Shown piece after piece: positions 34,392 through 40,896 of a stretch of DNA of 64,000 nucleotides. This DNA is from Methylotenera sp. G11 (lineage in GTDB: Bacteria > Pseudomonadota > Gammaproteobacteria > Burkholderiales > Methylophilaceae). The stretch spans positions 1,054,001 through 1,118,000 of the forward strand of contig NZ_JUHH01000001.1 in the NCBI RefSeq assembly GCF_000799735.1, given 5' to 3'. The translations under genes were made by a program, and so were the position numbers. Numbering within the stretch: position 1 is the first letter of the stretch; each line of letters starts with the position of its first letter. The notes below the pieces were generated by a model. It worked only from the letters and a program-made list of their open reading frames with translations. It had not been told where the DNA came from and made no database searches.

Positions 34392-34533
34392 CATGGCGGC
34401 ACTGATGGGGCACCAATACTAAATTTTCGATTTGTCATCAAAGTTTCAAACAAAAACCATAAAAATAAACAATAATATTGTTTTACAAGACTAGAATGCA
34501 CAATATCTGGCGCAATCTCACCGGCAAATAATT

Positions 34534-36054
34534 ATGGAAAACAACGACACCCCGACCCCAGCAGACAAAGCGCTATTAGCCGCAATAGACCTTGGCTCGA
34601 ACAGTTTCCGGCTCGAAATCGGCCGTCTCGATGGCGGCCAGATACAACGCGTTGAGTACATTAAAGAACCGGTACGCCAGGGCGGCGACCTCGATGAAGA
34701 CCGCAACCTCACGCCAGAAGCGATTGAACGCGGCCTGCGTTGCCTGGCAAGATTCGCCGAACGCCTGCACGGGTTTGATGCATCGCATGTGCGTGCAGTC
34801 GCCACGCAGACATTGCGTGAGGCCAATAACCGCGATGTTTTCCTGAAACTTGCCAATAGAACCCTGGGCTTTGATGTAGAGGTGATTTCCGGCGTTGAAG
34901 AAGCGCGGCTGATATACCAGGGCGTTAACCGGTTCCTGCCTCAATCCGACGAAAAAAGGCTGGTCATCGACATTGGCGGCCGTTCTACCGAGTTCATCCT
35001 GGGCCAGGGCTTTAAATCCCACCACACAGCCTCGCTGCATGTTGGTTCCGTAGCGTGGTCGCTCAAGCATTTCCCCTCCGGCGAATTCACTGAAAAAGCC
35101 TTTTCACGCGCCCAGATCGCAGCCGAGTCTATTTTCGAAACATTAGGCGAACACTACAGCAACAGGCACTGGAATGTCGCCTATGGCGCTTCCGGCACCA
35201 TAGGCGCCGTTGCTGACGTGCTGGTGCAATACGGCAGGCCGCCGGATGTTGTCACCAGGGAAGGTCTCCATTGGCTGCGCGAAGAACTGCTGCGCGCGCG
35301 CAATGCCGAGAAAGTGCGCCTGAACGGCCTGCGTGAAGACCGCAAGCCGGTAATTGCCGGCGGATTGTCGGTATTGATCGCAGTATTCGAGTTCCTGCAG
35401 ATCGAATCGCTGAATGTAGCCAAAGGCGCCTTGAGGCACGGCCTTCTTTACGACATGCTGGCGCGTGAAAACGACATGCTGGATTTAAGGAACGCATCAT
35501 TACGCCGCCTGGCTAAAAAGTTCGATGTAGACCAGAACCATGCCAATACCGTAGCGAATGTCGCCGTAAAACTGTTTGAAAAAGTAACGCAGGATATCAA
35601 CTTTGCCGTGGGCGAGCAGCAGATACACACGCGAAAGCTGCGCTGGGCGGCGCAGCTGCATGAGATCGGCAGCATGATTTCCCCGGTCGATGCGCATATT
35701 CACGGCGCCTACATCCTGGAACATACGGAACCGCAGGGGTTTGCGCAAAGTGAACTGCATTGCCTGAGCCTGCTGATACTTGGGCATCGCGGCAAGATCA
35801 AGCGCCTGGAAGCCGACTTGTCAAACCGCATCTTCACCATGCAGCTGCTGTGCCTGCGCCTTGCCGTCATTATGTGCCATGCACGCAAAAAACCCAACCT
35901 GCGTGGCATCCAGCTATCACTTATTGCCCATAAGATCACTCTGGCGCTCCCCGGCTACTGGCCAGAAAAGTACCCGCAATCCTATTACCTGCTGGATGAA
36001 GAAACACTGGCCTGGCAAAAAACCCACTGGCAGCTGGAGCTGCTTGCCGGCTGA
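34534..36054 (+). CDS. ppx: Exopolyphosphatase (Ppx/GppA family)
   Basis: ASKHA-fold phosphatase of 506 residues that shortens polyphosphate chains or hydrolyses pppGpp. The N-terminus has AAIDLGSNSFRLEIGRL, then VVDIGGRST-type motif (LVIDIGGRSTEFILG) and AYGASGTIGAVADV. The C-terminal part carries an HD-like region (LHEIGSMISPVDAHIHGAYI). Ppx and GppA cannot be separated by sight, but a ppk gene lies 4.7 kb away on the opposite strand, favouring Ppx. The ATG at 34534 lacks a strong ribosome-binding site. Confidence 0.92.
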   Translation: MENNDTPTPADKALLAAIDLGSNSFRLEIGRLDGGQIQRVEYIKEPVRQGGDLDEDRNLTPEAIERGLRCLARFAERLHGFDASHVRAVATQTLREANNRDVFLKLANRTLGFDVEVISGVEEARLIYQGVNRFLPQSDEKRLVIDIGGRSTEFILGQGFKSHHTASLHVGSVAWSLKHFPSGEFTEKAFSRAQIAAESIFETLGEHYSNRHWNVAYGASGTIGAVADVLVQYGRPPDVVTREGLHWLREELLRARNAEKVRLNGLREDRKPVIAGGLSVLIAVFEFLQIESLNVAKGALRHGLLYDMLARENDMLDLRNASLRRLAKKFDVDQNHANTVANVAVKLFEKVTQDINFAVGEQQIHTRKLRWAAQLHEIGSMISPVDAHIHGAYILEHTEPQGFAQSELHCLSLLILGHRGKIKRLEADLSNRIFTMQLLCLRLAVIMCHARKKPNLRGIQLSLIAHKITLALPGYWPEKYPQSYYLLDEETLAWQKTHWQLELLAG

Positions 36055-36088
36055 GAATGCTGTCATAAAAAATTCATTTGCATTAAAG

Positions 36089-36121
36089 AATAAACGATAT
36101 AAACTGTTTATATCGTTTATT
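36089..36121. promoter_or_regulatory. Perfect 33-bp palindrome, putative operator of the RHH gene
   Basis: Two perfect 16-base arms (AATAAACGATATAAAC and its complement) are separated by one base. The right arm ends 14 bases before the ATG at 36136, just ahead of the AAAGG ribosome-binding site. The arms contain TATAAA/TTTATA, which could double as a -10 element. No T tract or GC stem is present, so it is a poor terminator. Ribbon-helix-helix proteins typically bind such sites and repress their own genes. Confidence 0.75.
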
Positions 36122-36135
36122 GGAAAGGTGCCCCT

Positions 36136-36615
36136 ATGTCAAAAATCAACCCCGTACAAGCTGCCGCACTGAAAGACCCTGTTGAGAAAACAGCATCTGA
36201 AAAAACAGTGCCGGAAAAAAAAGCCGCACCGACAAAAGCCGTCGCGACTAAACCAGCCACCGTTAAAGCGCCTGTAGCAAAAACCGCAGCAGCCAAACCT
36301 GTAGCAAAAGCGGCCGTAAAACCTGCTCCAGGCGGTGAGGCATTGAAAACTGCCGCGCCTAAAAAAGCCGAGAAACCCGCAAAAGAAAAGACGCCAAAAC
36401 TCAAAATGGAGCGTGACAGCTTTACCATGCCCAAAACCGAGTATGCGCAGTTTCATGTACTGAAAGAACGCCTGAATACATTAGGCCAGCCAGCCAAGAA
36501 AAGTGAACTGTTGCGCGCAGGCATCATGCAGCTCAGCGCCATGACAGATGCGGCCTTAAAAGCCGCTTTAGCGAAAGTACCGGCCATTAAAACCGGCCGG
36601 CCGAAAAAGAAATAA
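36136..36615 (+). CDS. Histone-H1-like tail plus ribbon-helix-helix and AT-hook DNA-binding protein
   Basis: Protein of 159 residues. Residues 1-90 are Ala/Lys/Pro-rich low complexity, like bacterial H1/AlgP-type tails. Residues 93-136 fit a ribbon-helix-helix: strand RDSFTMP, helix KTEYAQFHVLKERLNTLG, turn, helix SELLRAGIMQLSAM. The end is GRPKKK (154-159), an AT-hook-like core. I recall similar C-terminal domains in uncharacterised betaproteobacterial proteins. A perfect palindrome lies immediately upstream, suggesting autoregulation. It is located between ppx and the ppk operon. Confidence 0.78.
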   Translation: MSKINPVQAAALKDPVEKTASEKTVPEKKAAPTKAVATKPATVKAPVAKTAAAKPVAKAAVKPAPGGEALKTAAPKKAEKPAKEKTPKLKMERDSFTMPKTEYAQFHVLKERLNTLGQPAKKSELLRAGIMQLSAMTDAALKAALAKVPAIKTGRPKKK

Positions 36616-36624
36616 CATGTAAAC

Positions 36625-36671
36625 CCTGCCAGGCTGAATGAATTCCTAGCCCTTAATTTTAGCCTGACAGG
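36625..36671. terminator. Inverted repeat between converging genes, possible bidirectional terminator
   Basis: CCTGCCAGGCT (36625-36635) and AGCCTGACAGG (36661-36671) pair with one mismatch around a 25-base loop. It fills the space between the converging RHH and peptidase genes. The long loop and lack of a clear T tract make terminator function uncertain. Confidence 0.4.
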
Positions 36672-36672
36672 A

Positions 36673-37647
36673 TCACCTGGCTGAGTGTGCGTTGATTTCG
36701 TCCAGGGTTTTCTGAATCTGAGATTGCAGCTTACGGTCTTTTTCAGCCAGTTGCAGCGCTTTTTCGGCAGATGCCCTGGCGGCAGTAACATCGCCTTGCG
36801 CAAGCAGCACATTCGCAAGGTTGTTGTGCGCGGCTGCGGAATCAGGATATGCTTCAATGGCATTGCGGAATGCGCTTGCGGCGCCGCTCAGGTCGCCGGC
36901 AGCATAGGCGCTGTTTCCGAGCCCCGTCAATATTACCAGGTGCCTTGGCCATTGCCTGGCAGCGGCAGCATAAGCCACTTGCAGGTCGGCGGCATCCGCA
37001 GCCTTCTCAAAGCTGACCAGTGCCGCAGCCACTGCGTCTGCCCCGGCGCTGGCAGGCAGGCTGCCCGGTTTTAATGCAACGAACGCCCAATATTGGCTGC
37101 GTGCCCACGTGCGCTGAAAAGTGCTCAAGGTCATTTCAAAGCGTTTAAAAGTGCCGGAGCGCAGCCAGACCAGTTCTTTATCCAGGTCATAACCGACAAC
37201 GACTGCATAATGCCACGAGGGCGCCCAGGATAAGCCCAGGTTCTGCATCACGACCACGACGTTGCCGGCCGCGATCTCTTTCAACACGGCACCGAGTTCC
37301 GGTTCGATCTTCACAGCCAGGGCACCATGCCTGCGTGCGGCAACCAGCATTTCAATCTGCAGACTGCCTTTACGGCTGGGGATATAAACCTCGGGCACGA
37401 GCTGATCGGGACTGACGCCGATGTTGACTGCATTAAGCGCCGTTGCAAGCGCGGCAGGACCGCAATGATATTGCTCCTGCGGGAAGAACGGAGTAGCGGC
37501 CAATTCCGCATGCCGGGGCAACTGCGGATCGTGCGTGGCCTCGCGCACACCCGTGGCAGCACAGGCGCTGAGCAGGAATGCAAAAGCCAGCATGCTGCCT
37601 TTAAGCAGCATACTGGCCGGCCTGGTAGAAAACGCTGTCAATGACAA
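36673..37647 (-). CDS. PA2778-type C39-like cysteine peptidase with TPR repeats
   Basis: Predicted lipoprotein of 324 residues: lipobox LLSAC with Cys at 29, then a papain-like C39-type domain with catalytic C62 (YHCGPAALATAL) and H147 (PSWHYAVVVGYD). The C-terminal third is TPR-like (AAHNNLANVLLAQGDVTAA). This arrangement matches the PA2778 family of cysteine peptidases. C39 peptidases usually cleave double-glycine leaders; here no transporter is fused or adjacent, so the substrate is open. It lies 10 bases after a PA2779-type gene, its usual partner. Confidence 0.85.
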   Translation of the reverse strand: MSLTAFSTRPASMLLKGSMLAFAFLLSACAATGVREATHDPQLPRHAELAATPFFPQEQYHCGPAALATALNAVNIGVSPDQLVPEVYIPSRKGSLQIEMLVAARRHGALAVKIEPELGAVLKEIAAGNVVVVMQNLGLSWAPSWHYAVVVGYDLDKELVWLRSGTFKRFEMTLSTFQRTWARSQYWAFVALKPGSLPASAGADAVAAALVSFEKAADAADLQVAYAAAARQWPRHLVILTGLGNSAYAAGDLSGAASAFRNAIEAYPDSAAAHNNLANVLLAQGDVTAARASAEKALQLAEKDRKLQSQIQKTLDEINAHSAR

Positions 37648-37657
37648 TGACGTGTAT

Positions 37658-38053
37658 CTAGCGGACAGACCTTGTGAAAGGGAAAATCTTGGTGAATCCG
37701 AGAATATCGGTCAGCAGCAGCACGAAGAACACCAGCAGAATTGCACCGATAATGCCGCCAGCCGGTGCCGTATCGAGTTGTGAAGCAACCATGCCGGCTT
37801 CTTCATCAGTCAATGCAGCCACACGATCCTGTGCCTGTGCCGGGTCTATGCCACGGGCCACCAGTGCCGCCTGCACATCTTCACGTGACAGTGCGGCAAC
37901 AATCAGCGCGCGGTTCTGGTTGCCTTCATTGCTCACTGCACTCTCGGCAACCTGCCCTGCACTGATCATGGCTGCCTGAACGGTTTGGATCGAACCGGTA
38001 AACAATATTGATGCCGCAAGAAATGCAGTGAAAAAACGTTTAACAAAAATCAT
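37658..38053 (-). CDS. PA2779-type small membrane protein
   Basis: Protein of 131 residues beginning at the ATG at 38053 with a signal peptide or N-terminal anchor (MIFVKRFFTAFLAASILF, then VQAA). A helical middle has ALSREDVQAALVARGIDP and TDEEAGMVASQLDTAPAGG, and a C-terminal membrane span (GAILLVFFVLLLTDILG) ends in a short basic tail. It matches the PA2779 family, found next to PA2778-type peptidases. The PAGG just before the last membrane span contains a double Gly and could be a peptidase target; that is speculation. Confidence 0.83.
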   Translation of the reverse strand: MIFVKRFFTAFLAASILFTGSIQTVQAAMISAGQVAESAVSNEGNQNRALIVAALSREDVQAALVARGIDPAQAQDRVAALTDEEAGMVASQLDTAPAGGIIGAILLVFFVLLLTDILGFTKIFPFTRSVR

Positions 38054-38282
38054 GATAAATACTCCTTGAGTGAATTTAAAGCTTCTCGATATCCGTAAGA
38101 ATTTAATCACCAACCGGCCTTAAACTATTCGCCAAGTGGCATGCGCATCCCGGAAAGCGCAAATCGTTAAGGCAGCCTGATGCATAGAACGCACATCAAA
38201 AATATCACAGATATACAATTATGCATACCGTTAACTTTACAAGCTTAATAGTTTGAATCTTGAGATGAAAAAGCTTGACGCT

Positions 38283-38756
38283 TCAGCTATCAGGCTGCCT
38301 GACGGTGTGGACATAATATGTTGCATCATTGCCGACAAGGCGTTGCCGCAGCCACCAGACCGAGCCTTTCTTAACGACGCCGGCACTCTGGTGCATACCC
38401 AGCAGCTTCGTGATCAGTAATCCAAGGTTCGGCTGATGCCCGACTATCAATACTGTTTTAGCGCTATATTTAGAGGCCAGCTCTCTGGCGATGCGCTCCG
38501 CACTGCTGTCCACGCTTAAAAACTCTTCGATTTTCACTGGCGCCTGATTCAATGCAGACAGTGCCGCTGCCGTTTCCCGGCAACGCTGTGCAGGGCTACA
38601 CAGCACCACTGTGACGGCAGGCAGGTAATCACTGAGCCACTTTGCCATCCTGGCCGCATCTTTACGGCCGCGTTTGGTCAAGGCGCGGTCTGTATCCCTG
38701 CCGCTGGCGCTGACATCTTCAGCCTCGGCATGCCGCCAGAATATTAAATCCGCCAT
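38283..38756 (-). CDS. sixA: Phosphohistidine phosphatase SixA
   Basis: Histidine phosphatase superfamily protein of 157 residues. The RHG-type catalytic motif appears as FWRHAEAED (catalytic His at 8), with SPAQRCRETA and VGHQPNLG supplying the second Arg and His. SixA removes phosphate from phosphohistidine in proteins such as ArcB or NPr in E. coli. It starts 15 bases after ppk and is probably co-transcribed with it. Confidence 0.9.
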   Translation of the reverse strand: MADLIFWRHAEAEDVSASGRDTDRALTKRGRKDAARMAKWLSDYLPAVTVVLCSPAQRCRETAAALSALNQAPVKIEEFLSVDSSAERIARELASKYSAKTVLIVGHQPNLGLLITKLLGMHQSAGVVKKGSVWWLRQRLVGNDATYYVHTVRQPDS

Positions 38757-38771
38757 AGATATTCCATTCGT

Positions 38772-40835
38772 TTAATCGGCATATTTCTGTATCAGGAACT
38801 GCTGGGCACTGAACACCGGCAGTTTGGCAAGCGCAGGCTGGCTTGCACTTAATTGATAGCTGCCGTCATCCTGTAACAGCCAGGCATCGTGATTATCATC
38901 CAGGTAGACCTGGCAGCATTCCTGCAGGATCCTGGCGCGGTTTTTGGCATCGGTGATCGGCCAGGCGATTTCCACGCGCCGCATCATGTTGCGGTTCATC
39001 CAGTCCGCACTTGAAAGCCACATGCATTCATCGGCATCAATCTTGAAATAGAACACGCGCGAATGTTCCAGCAGGCGGCCAATCACCGAGCGTACACGGA
39101 TGCGGCCATCCAGCCCCTTTGCATTGACCGGCAGGATACACGCGCCGCGCAGTATCAGGTCGATTTCCACCCCGGCGCGCCCTGCCCTGACCAGCGCCCG
39201 CACCAGCATTTCATCGGTCAAGGCATTCATTTTCAGGATAATACGAACCGGCTTGCCCGCCTTGGCAGCCGCTTCGGACGCCCTGATCTTGGCGAGCATC
39301 TGCTTATGCAGGTTAAATGGCGCGACCAGCAGCTTCTGCATGCGTGGCAGCTTGACCTGGCTGGCGATATGCCTGAACAGATGCTCCATATCGCGGGTAA
39401 TCTGGGGGTCGGCAGTGAGCATGCTGACATCGGTATAAAGACGCGCGGTCTTAGGATTGTAATTGCCGGTAGAAACATGACCATAGTATTTAAGGCCTGC
39501 GCCCTCACGCCGCATCACCAGCAGCATTTTTGCATGTGTCTTCAGGCCTACGATACCATACACGACTTGCGCACCGACTGATTCGAGATCCTCAGCCCAG
39601 TTGATGTTGGCTTCTTCATCGAACCTGGCCTTCAGCTCCACGACTGCCATGACTTCCTTGCCGCGCCGGACGGCTTCCTGCAGCAGCTTGAGCATACGCG
39701 GGTCTGAACCGGTACGGTAAATTGTCTGCTGGATAGACAGTACATCGGGGTCATTGACGGCCTCACGCAGAAAATCGATGACCGATTCAAAACTTTCATA
39801 GGGCTGGTGAATCAGGATATCCTGCTGCTTCAGCTGTGTAAAAAATGACTGGTTAGGCTGCAGCAAAGCGCTGATTTTAGGTTCAAACGGCTTGAAATTG
39901 AGATGACTGCCTTCGGCAAGATTCGCCCACATCATCAAACGTGCCAGATTAACAGGACCATGCACGCGATAAAGCGATTCTTTAGGCAGGTCAAACTGTT
40001 TCAATAAGAATTTAGCCAGTTTTTCATCGCAACTGTTGGAGACTTCCAGGCGCACCGCATCGCCAAAGTTTCTCTGCACCAGGCCCTGGCGTAATGCGGT
40101 ACGTAGGTTTTTCACGTCTTCCTCATCCACAGCCAGGTCTGAATGCCGGGTAACGCGGAATTGTGAAAAGCTCAGCATTTCACGCCCGGCAAACAGGCTC
40201 TCCAGATGCGTGCGTATGATGCTTGATAAGGAAACGAACAATTGCTGCTTGCCGCTCAGGTTCTTCGGCAGCTTAATCAGTCTGGGCAAAGCCCTGGGGA
40301 CGCGCACGATCGCAATATTATTCTGCCGCCCGAAAGCATCCGTGCCGCCTAGAGAAACAATAAAATTGAGCGATTTATTGGCCACCTGCGGAAACGGATG
40401 CGAAGGATCCAGCGCTACCGGCACCAGCAATGGGCGTACATTCGAATCAAAATAGCGCGAAACCCAGCGCTTCTGCTCAGCCGTACGCTCACCGTGCGAT
40501 ACCAGGCGAATGCCTTGCGCTTCAAGTGCCGGCACCAGTTCATTGTTGAAAATGTCATACTGCTTATCGACGAGGGCATGCGCTACTTTTGAGATCGCCT
40601 GATAACTCTCGACATTCACGTCACTCTGCTGCTCGCCATCACGCATGGCATCGACATGCGGTGCCGCACGCACCTCAAAGAACTCATCCAGGTTTGATGA
40701 AACAATCGAAAGAAAACGCAGGCGTTCAAGCAGGGGATACTCTGTGTTCTGCGCCAGGCTCATGACACGCTCATTGAACGCAAGAATACTGATGTCGCGA
40801 TTCAGGAGTTTTATTGGGGAATTAATCGTCCGCAT
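38772..40835 (-). CDS. ppk: Polyphosphate kinase 1
   Basis: Reversible ATP:polyphosphate phosphotransferase, 687 residues. The N-terminal domain starts with LLNRDISILAFNERV. The catalytic phospholipase-D-like domains contain YGHVSTGNYNPKTARLYTD with the autophosphorylated His and a late SSADWMNRNMMRRVE. The ATG at 40835 has no visible ribosome-binding site. A possible Pho box lies 33 bases upstream. With ppx close by, polyphosphate synthesis and breakdown are clustered. Confidence 0.96.
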   Translation of the reverse strand: MRTINSPIKLLNRDISILAFNERVMSLAQNTEYPLLERLRFLSIVSSNLDEFFEVRAAPHVDAMRDGEQQSDVNVESYQAISKVAHALVDKQYDIFNNELVPALEAQGIRLVSHGERTAEQKRWVSRYFDSNVRPLLVPVALDPSHPFPQVANKSLNFIVSLGGTDAFGRQNNIAIVRVPRALPRLIKLPKNLSGKQQLFVSLSSIIRTHLESLFAGREMLSFSQFRVTRHSDLAVDEEDVKNLRTALRQGLVQRNFGDAVRLEVSNSCDEKLAKFLLKQFDLPKESLYRVHGPVNLARLMMWANLAEGSHLNFKPFEPKISALLQPNQSFFTQLKQQDILIHQPYESFESVIDFLREAVNDPDVLSIQQTIYRTGSDPRMLKLLQEAVRRGKEVMAVVELKARFDEEANINWAEDLESVGAQVVYGIVGLKTHAKMLLVMRREGAGLKYYGHVSTGNYNPKTARLYTDVSMLTADPQITRDMEHLFRHIASQVKLPRMQKLLVAPFNLHKQMLAKIRASEAAAKAGKPVRIILKMNALTDEMLVRALVRAGRAGVEIDLILRGACILPVNAKGLDGRIRVRSVIGRLLEHSRVFYFKIDADECMWLSSADWMNRNMMRRVEIAWPITDAKNRARILQECCQVYLDDNHDAWLLQDDGSYQLSASQPALAKLPVFSAQQFLIQKYAD

Positions 40836-40867: not shown

Positions 40868-40896
40868 ATGCGTCAATTATGACAATTTAATGAAGT
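40868..40896 (-). promoter_or_regulatory. Possible PhoB box upstream of ppk
   Basis: Read on the minus strand: ACTTCAT, TAAA, TTGTCAT, AATT, GACGCAT. The CAT ends recur exactly every 11 bases, the layout of PhoB direct repeats (consensus CTGTCAT). Only the middle unit is a close match (six of seven). A TATATT element (40853-40848) follows. Confidence 0.4.

Follow-up and report, generated by a model that had tools for sequence, protein, structure and literature searches.

The window analyzed here is a 64,000-nucleotide stretch of the genome of Methylotenera sp. G11, in which a gene at 36136–36615 (+ strand) encodes a protein of 159 amino acids. The protein contains a Lys/Ala/Pro tail (residues ~1–90), a ribbon-helix-helix (RHH)-like core (residues ~92–150) and a C-terminal KTGRPKKK. 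The gene sits between a ppx-like gene and the sixA-ppk1 genes. The ppx-like gene (34534–36054, + strand), an open reading frame that we take to encode a member of the exopolyphosphatase family, adjoins the gene in most relatives that have sequence there. On the minus strand, an open reading frame at 38283–38756, which is also found in relatives, is presumably a sixA-like phosphohistidine phosphatase gene, and ppk1 (38772–40835) encodes a polyphosphate kinase that matches TIGR03705 (G000:C1:1092787-1094808, E 3.2e-257). Genus loci with flanking sequence contain ppx, sixA-ppk1 or both; ppx is absent within ~3 kb upstream in L044 and L046 and lies some 0.6–1.5 kb away in a few other genus loci. 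A toxin-antitoxin reading was dropped, as the gene is flanked by ppx, sixA and ppk1 and no toxin-like partner is found among the nearby open reading frames.

Between the gene and sixA (36673–38113, − strand) lie a C39-peptidase/TPR-like gene and a small membrane-protein-like gene, which we take to be PA2778/PA2779-like. The same pair is present in other loci (e.g. L034, L036, L038 and L055), and sixA follows the gene directly in others (e.g. L041 and L042). Judged from these arrangements, an insertion or loss has occurred inside the polyphosphate locus at this pair.

A basic tail joined to an RHH-like core

Residues 1–90 contain 21 Lys, 23 Ala, 12 Pro, seven Asp/Glu and no Arg, with a pI of 10.2. 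Of the 92 homologues with a measurable tail, 91 have one with a net positive charge, the tail lengths being approximate because the start codons of the homologues were set by rule. In the core, R-D-S-F-T-M-P is followed by a helix, KKSELLRAG by a second helix, and a short third helix by KTGRP. The AlphaFold2 monomer model of the 75-residue core (pLDDT 77, pTM 0.51) contains helices at residues 16–31, 38–51 and 54–62, and the strand stretch is unformed and of low confidence. Of the strand-helix-helix region claimed in the earlier note, the helices are therefore reproduced by the model and the strand is not. In RHH dimers, the strand of one chain pairs with the strand of its partner, so the strandless monomer model is taken as evidence neither for nor against an RHH fold.

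PDB fold searches with this moderate-confidence model returned no matching solved fold, and the best matches of a PDB sequence profile search had E values of 0.64 or worse. Pfam and NCBIfam scans of the protein, RHH and PhaR-type models included, gave nothing above the cut-off. The protein was aligned by hhalign, profile to profile, with 25 RHH_1 (PF01402) proteins (25 of 29 loci from related genomes), which gave a probability of 70.5 for an 18-row alignment and 54.6 for a 140-row alignment. The 140-row score of 26.1 exceeds the maximum of 60 column shuffles (14.3) and the score of the reversed profile (10.7), and the match falls in the expected strand-helix-helix register, which supports the RHH-like core that had been claimed. 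The protein resembles RHH_1 moderately in profile, with the register matching, and differs from it in the negative direct Pfam scan, the extra third helix of the model and the C-terminal KTGRP. Taken at the level of the profile, the protein probably belongs to the ribbon-helix-helix proteins and probably binds DNA.

An AT-hook is defined by an RGRP core between basic residues. AT-hook membership was rejected, as KTGRPKKK has no RGRP core; the motif [KR][TA]GRP is found in 85 of the 94 homologues. The three DNA-contact modes proposed earlier are thus not borne out: the C-terminus carries KTGRP rather than RGRP, and contact of the tail with DNA rather than with polyphosphate is only presumed.

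A unique palindrome precedes the gene and is conserved with it

Positions 35900–36700 contain a single inverted repeat, which has 16-nt arms at 36089–36104 and 36106–36121 that are 100% complementary and separated by one base. This perfect 16-1-16 palindrome (36089–36121, no strand assigned), which reads AATAAACGATATAAAC-T-GTTTATATCGTTTATT, is the proposed operator and is separated by 14 bases from the ATG at 36136. The inverted-repeat search thereby confirms the flawless arms, the one-base centre and the distance to the start codon that were given in the earlier note. The 2.545 Mb genome contains no further copy of the 16-nt arm at up to two mismatches, and no second copy of the 23-base core occurs in it (2,545,099 bases, single contig) at up to three mismatches. 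A promoter-like element (TTGCA, 15 bp, TATAAACT; 36078–36105, + strand), with weak −35 and −10 sequences, may be read upstream of the gene, and its −10 is made up of bases from the palindrome's left arm and centre. The identical 15-bp spacing is present in 31 of 46 genus upstream regions. A scan for consensus sigma-70 promoters found none at the scan threshold, and a terminator scan found no terminator-like site.

To follow the palindrome through the genus, 54 loci were reduced to 46 distinct upstream regions by dropping duplicates and those with fewer than 110 bases upstream; L034–L059 and L063 were assigned to the genus by core similarity. A site that matches AACGGTATAAACTGTTTATACCGTT at at least 21 of 25 positions is present in all 46 regions, which disfavours a chance origin of the palindrome. 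The sites lie 15–20 bases before the called start codon, or 8 bases in L064, whose called start differs. A perfect 12-1-12 palindrome is retained in 12 of the 46 regions. At one palindrome position the asymmetry is mostly G-T (14/46), and A-C and C-A are also seen.

A weight matrix built from the 46 genus sites was used to scan 94 order-wide loci with a mean length of 13.9 kb, and the best match of each locus was compared with a scored stretch that runs from 250 bases before the open frame through to the core. The best match falls in this stretch in 82 of 94 loci when one direction is scanned (4.7 expected by length) and in 84 when both are, so that the palindrome is kept upstream of the orthologues; in the remaining 10 loci the site is not the top match. 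Column-shuffled matrices reach a mean of 23.5 and a maximum of 46 loci (40 shuffles), and palindromic shuffles a mean of 22.9 and a maximum of 67 (40 shuffles), with an overall range of 9–67. AT-rich promoters hence account for part of the operator signal, but not for all of it. The site is also top-ranked in loci without any sought phosphate gene (L203, L184, L157, L188 and L133), which indicates that the palindrome tracks the gene and not only its neighbourhood. The palindrome is probably a self-operator of the adjoining gene. For the self-regulation claimed in the earlier note, the part that stands is a conserved putative operator that lies at the gene's own promoter and travels with it across families; repression would follow from it.

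We compared operator scores with the strand residues of the core, of which R, S and T were taken as outward (DNA-facing) and D, F and M as inward. All three outward residues are kept in 80 of 94 homologues, with a median operator score of 18.5, and the median is 9.6 in the 14 homologues with an outward change (Mann-Whitney P 0.001), a post hoc split that was chosen after the list was seen and in which cases are clustered in families and include several sister genomes. Inward-only changes (28 homologues) are not accompanied by lower scores (median 20.2 vs 18.2), and overall strand identity shows no correlation with the operator score (rho 0.05). The outward strand residues hint at operator recognition. 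Together with the conserved palindrome, this comparison lends indirect support to a putative dimer whose paired strands would enter the major groove.

Pho-box-like repeats across the locus

Half-site scoring and a pattern search revealed a Pho-box-like pair of 11-bp repeats (CTGTCATAAAA AATTCATTTGC) at 36060–36081 (+ strand), which ends 54 bases before the ATG of the gene. The pair carries 10 of 12 half-site letters, compared with a mean of 7.2 and a maximum of 9.2 in 50 shuffles of its own sequence; its second half-site is weak. This pair is the sole exact match to TGTCAYAAAWNNTTCA in the genome, and one of the five single-mismatch matches lies upstream of ppx. Genome-wide, the Pho pattern has six matches, against three for a backward control. 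Upstream of the gene, at least 9/12 letters are found in 37 of 46 genus regions, and in 33 of the 46 the score exceeds every one of 50 shuffles of the same region, mostly at equal distance.

Similar repeats precede ppx (34432–34453, + strand; pattern search) and ppk1 (40875–40896, − strand; read by eye), and both are also present in genus relatives. In 220-base stretches that were scored without shuffles, at least 9/12 letters occur upstream of ppx in 30 of 32 genus regions and upstream of ppk1 in 31 of 31; outside the genus, this holds for one of five ppx and two of four ppk1 upstream regions. PhoB is present in the genome, and one of its two pstS-like genes has TTGTCATCAATTTGTCA upstream. 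On sequence grounds, the 11-bp repeats ahead of the gene and the presence of PhoB make it a putative member of the Pho regulon. As such repeats also stand before ppk1 and ppx, Pho control in Methylotenera seems to cover the entire locus as one unit.

Linkage to phosphate genes and distribution

The 94 order loci comprise 80 newly fetched loci, 11 earlier ones and three named ones (L060–L062); among 103 places outside the gene's own, nine were earlier and 80 were fetched, and the 14 lowest-scoring were left out. ppk1 or ppx is present in the fetched locus of 48 of the 94 homologues, in 9 of 21 families (L060–L062 being assigned to none) and in several gene orders, and in none of 40 control regions, which were arbitrary 16-kb regions placed at rounded positions in 20 of these genomes. 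In one family, all 14 loci contain ppk1 or ppx. Any phosphate or polyphosphate gene is found in 59 loci and 11 of 21 families, against 0 of 40 controls, with the ppx and ppk1 queries taken from the window and the phoU, CHAD, pstS and pstC queries chosen after such genes had been seen in loci. The pstC matches at 27–32% identity may be other permeases, and all such loci hold ppk1, which leaves the 59 unaffected. The alternative neighbours are pstS, phoU and a CYTH-CHAD gene. The other 35 loci lack any sought phosphate gene, and 10 of these are shorter than 10 kb. Of the chromatin-like protein that the earlier note described, the histone-like Lys/Ala/Pro tail stands, whereas the locus points to polyphosphate, more than to general chromatin, as the likely purpose.

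Two further arrangements were seen. In L149, L175 and L180, the homologue lies ~95–145 bases upstream of pstS, which is followed by pstC and phoU, all in the same orientation; all three have a T-to-A change in the strand, and no operator match is found in L175 and L180. Three homologues (L161, L165 and L178) occur together in a single genome of family f21; ~1.5 kb downstream of the copies with the operator GTATAAAGTGTTTATAT, a CYTH-CHAD-like gene lies on the opposite strand.

The family occurs in 97 of 399 sampled genomes of the order, presumably Burkholderiales in GTDB, and spans at least 21 of its families; the named members here are a Comamonadaceae MAG, a Ramlibacter MAG and Trinickia. A sample of the class contains it in 8 of 276 genomes, among them the gene's own genome and another order member, and the family is therefore thin beyond the order. 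No match to the protein was found in a phage collection, and a plasmid collection gave 11 records, nine of them larger than 600 kb, with the protein entered as 'hypothetical protein' in five and with no listed gene in six.

Within the genus, the gene is present in 48 of 52 genomes, all of which also have ppk1. The four genomes without it are small or incomplete; ppk1 is not found in three of them, and the fourth retains a broken remnant of it (G041:C16:22096-22555, in a small genome without a match for the RHH-like gene). This joint loss may reflect a single deletion of adjacent genes or missing sequence. In other genera of Methylophilaceae, 7 of 9 genomes have ppk1 and no match for the gene, which indicates that the gene is not essential to polyphosphate synthesis.

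Discussion

The protein family is matched by no Pfam or NCBIfam model and is neither AlgP nor of the PhaR type. AlgP of P. aeruginosa, as described in the available part of its report, is a 352-residue protein in which a helical N-terminal domain is followed by a KPAA tail at the C-terminus, and its gene adjoins algR and algQ (PMC9239181). It is found on polyphosphate granules and has been speculated to tether them to the chromosome, and its loss leads to fewer, larger granules (PMC9239181, same part). The protein described here shares with AlgP a histone H1-like Lys/Pro/Ala disordered domain (PMC9239181). In contrast to what that part describes, its tail is N-terminal and irregular, its folded part is RHH-like, and its gene lies in a polyphosphate locus behind a conserved palindrome. 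AlgP family membership was rejected, as no long C-terminal KPAA repeat follows an N-terminal helical domain.

PhaR of Ralstonia eutropha, an autorepressor that binds PHB and whose derepression is tied to polymer synthesis (PMC3570403, available sections), offers a model of how an autorepressor that is also a polymer binder could work; here, polymer binding is only proposed. The polymer of PhaR is PHB, and PhaR-type membership was rejected, as the Pfam and NCBIfam scans found no PhaR domain. PhaM and PhaF likewise have histone-like basic domains, which attach storage granules to the nucleoid (PMC13052382); they differ in acting on PHB granules and in having a C-terminal DNA-binding end, and the portion of the review available mentions no RHH-like domain or operator for them. 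ParG of plasmid TP228 shares a flexible N-terminal tail, a C-terminal RHH domain and repression of its own operon, but is a plasmid partition protein with ParF as partner, for which the accessible text mentions no polyphosphate link (PMC7308502). In Herbaspirillum, an HC2 histone-like protein and a CYTH-CHAD protein are reported on PHB granules (PMC3783465, in part). By analogy, the protein may work like AlgP, like PhaM and PhaF and like PhaR in different respects. In searches of the open-licence literature, no publication came up that describes an RHH or histone-like protein from a ppx-ppk1 locus.

We consider it reasonably probable that the protein is a PhoB-activated, self-repressed dimeric RHH protein that has affinity for both DNA and polyphosphate and helps to tether granules of the latter to the nucleoid. 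In a module of ppx, the RHH-like gene, sixA and ppk1, PhoB would activate the promoter in phosphate starvation, and the RHH dimer would sit on the palindrome over the −10, limiting its own synthesis; both steps are proposed from the sequence. The Lys/Ala/Pro tail would most likely bind polyphosphate, as well as DNA without sequence preference. On the strength of the tail composition, the gene linkage and the analogy, the protein would coat or tether polyphosphate granules on the nucleoid, as proposed for AlgP. A more tentative possibility is that the protein is a polyphosphate-sensing autorepressor, in which the polymer competes through the Lys-rich tail and frees the operator, and which also coats or spaces the granules. 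Titration off the operator by polyphosphate, like that proposed for PhaR by PHB (PMC3570403), would then raise synthesis of the protein in step with the polymer.

The protein might instead act as a local transcription factor only, which represses itself and tunes a few phosphate genes and in which the tail raises DNA affinity and has no granule role. A conserved operator and an RHH-like core suit such a factor, and RHH proteins in which flexible N-terminal tails modulate DNA binding and repression exist, for instance ParG in the accessible text of its report (PMC7308502). However, a genome search at up to three mismatches gave no further operator and so no other visible target, none of the best eight window matches lies near ppk1 or ppx, and a basic Lys/Ala/Pro tail is kept across families, which together make this reading possible, if doubtful. 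It is improbable that the palindrome serves a different regulator as its operator and is not bound by the protein. AT-rich motifs do score well in promoters generally, as seen with the shuffles (9–67 of 94 loci), but more sites would be expected of another regulator than the one found, the site accompanies the gene through many families and locations, and operator decay accompanies the outward strand changes in the post hoc comparison.

The resemblance of the tail to histone H1 and the 35 of 94 loci without sought phosphate genes would fit a general bacterial histone-like protein, for which the polyphosphate linkage is incidental. We find this quite improbable, given ppk1 or ppx in 48 of 94 loci, in 9 of 21 families and in varied gene orders, against 0 of 40 controls, and given that other neighbours are again pstS, phoU and CYTH-CHAD genes. 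An mRNA hairpin near the ribosome-binding site could also produce a palindrome here: a transcript from an upstream start would fold a 15-bp hairpin (MFE −18.6, z −2.67), and the asymmetry is mostly G-T (14/46), which is tolerated in RNA. The promoter-like −10 inside the palindrome would nevertheless leave the whole hairpin untranscribed, A-C and C-A asymmetries occur, and no terminator-like site is found, so that this explanation is highly improbable.

The preferred reading, a PhoB-activated and self-repressed protein that tethers granules, bears on the question of how bacteria place and count polyphosphate granules, for which AlgP is the only polyphosphate-granule organiser in the table of a review, as far as its available part goes (PMC13052382). 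If titration off the operator by polyphosphate takes place, one protein would unite the sensor role of PhaR with the tether role of PhaM, PhaF and AlgP. If the granule role is true, a whole order, with the family in 97 of its 399 sampled genomes, would gain a genetically linked candidate organiser, and its ready operator would allow the control of transcription by polyphosphate to be examined.
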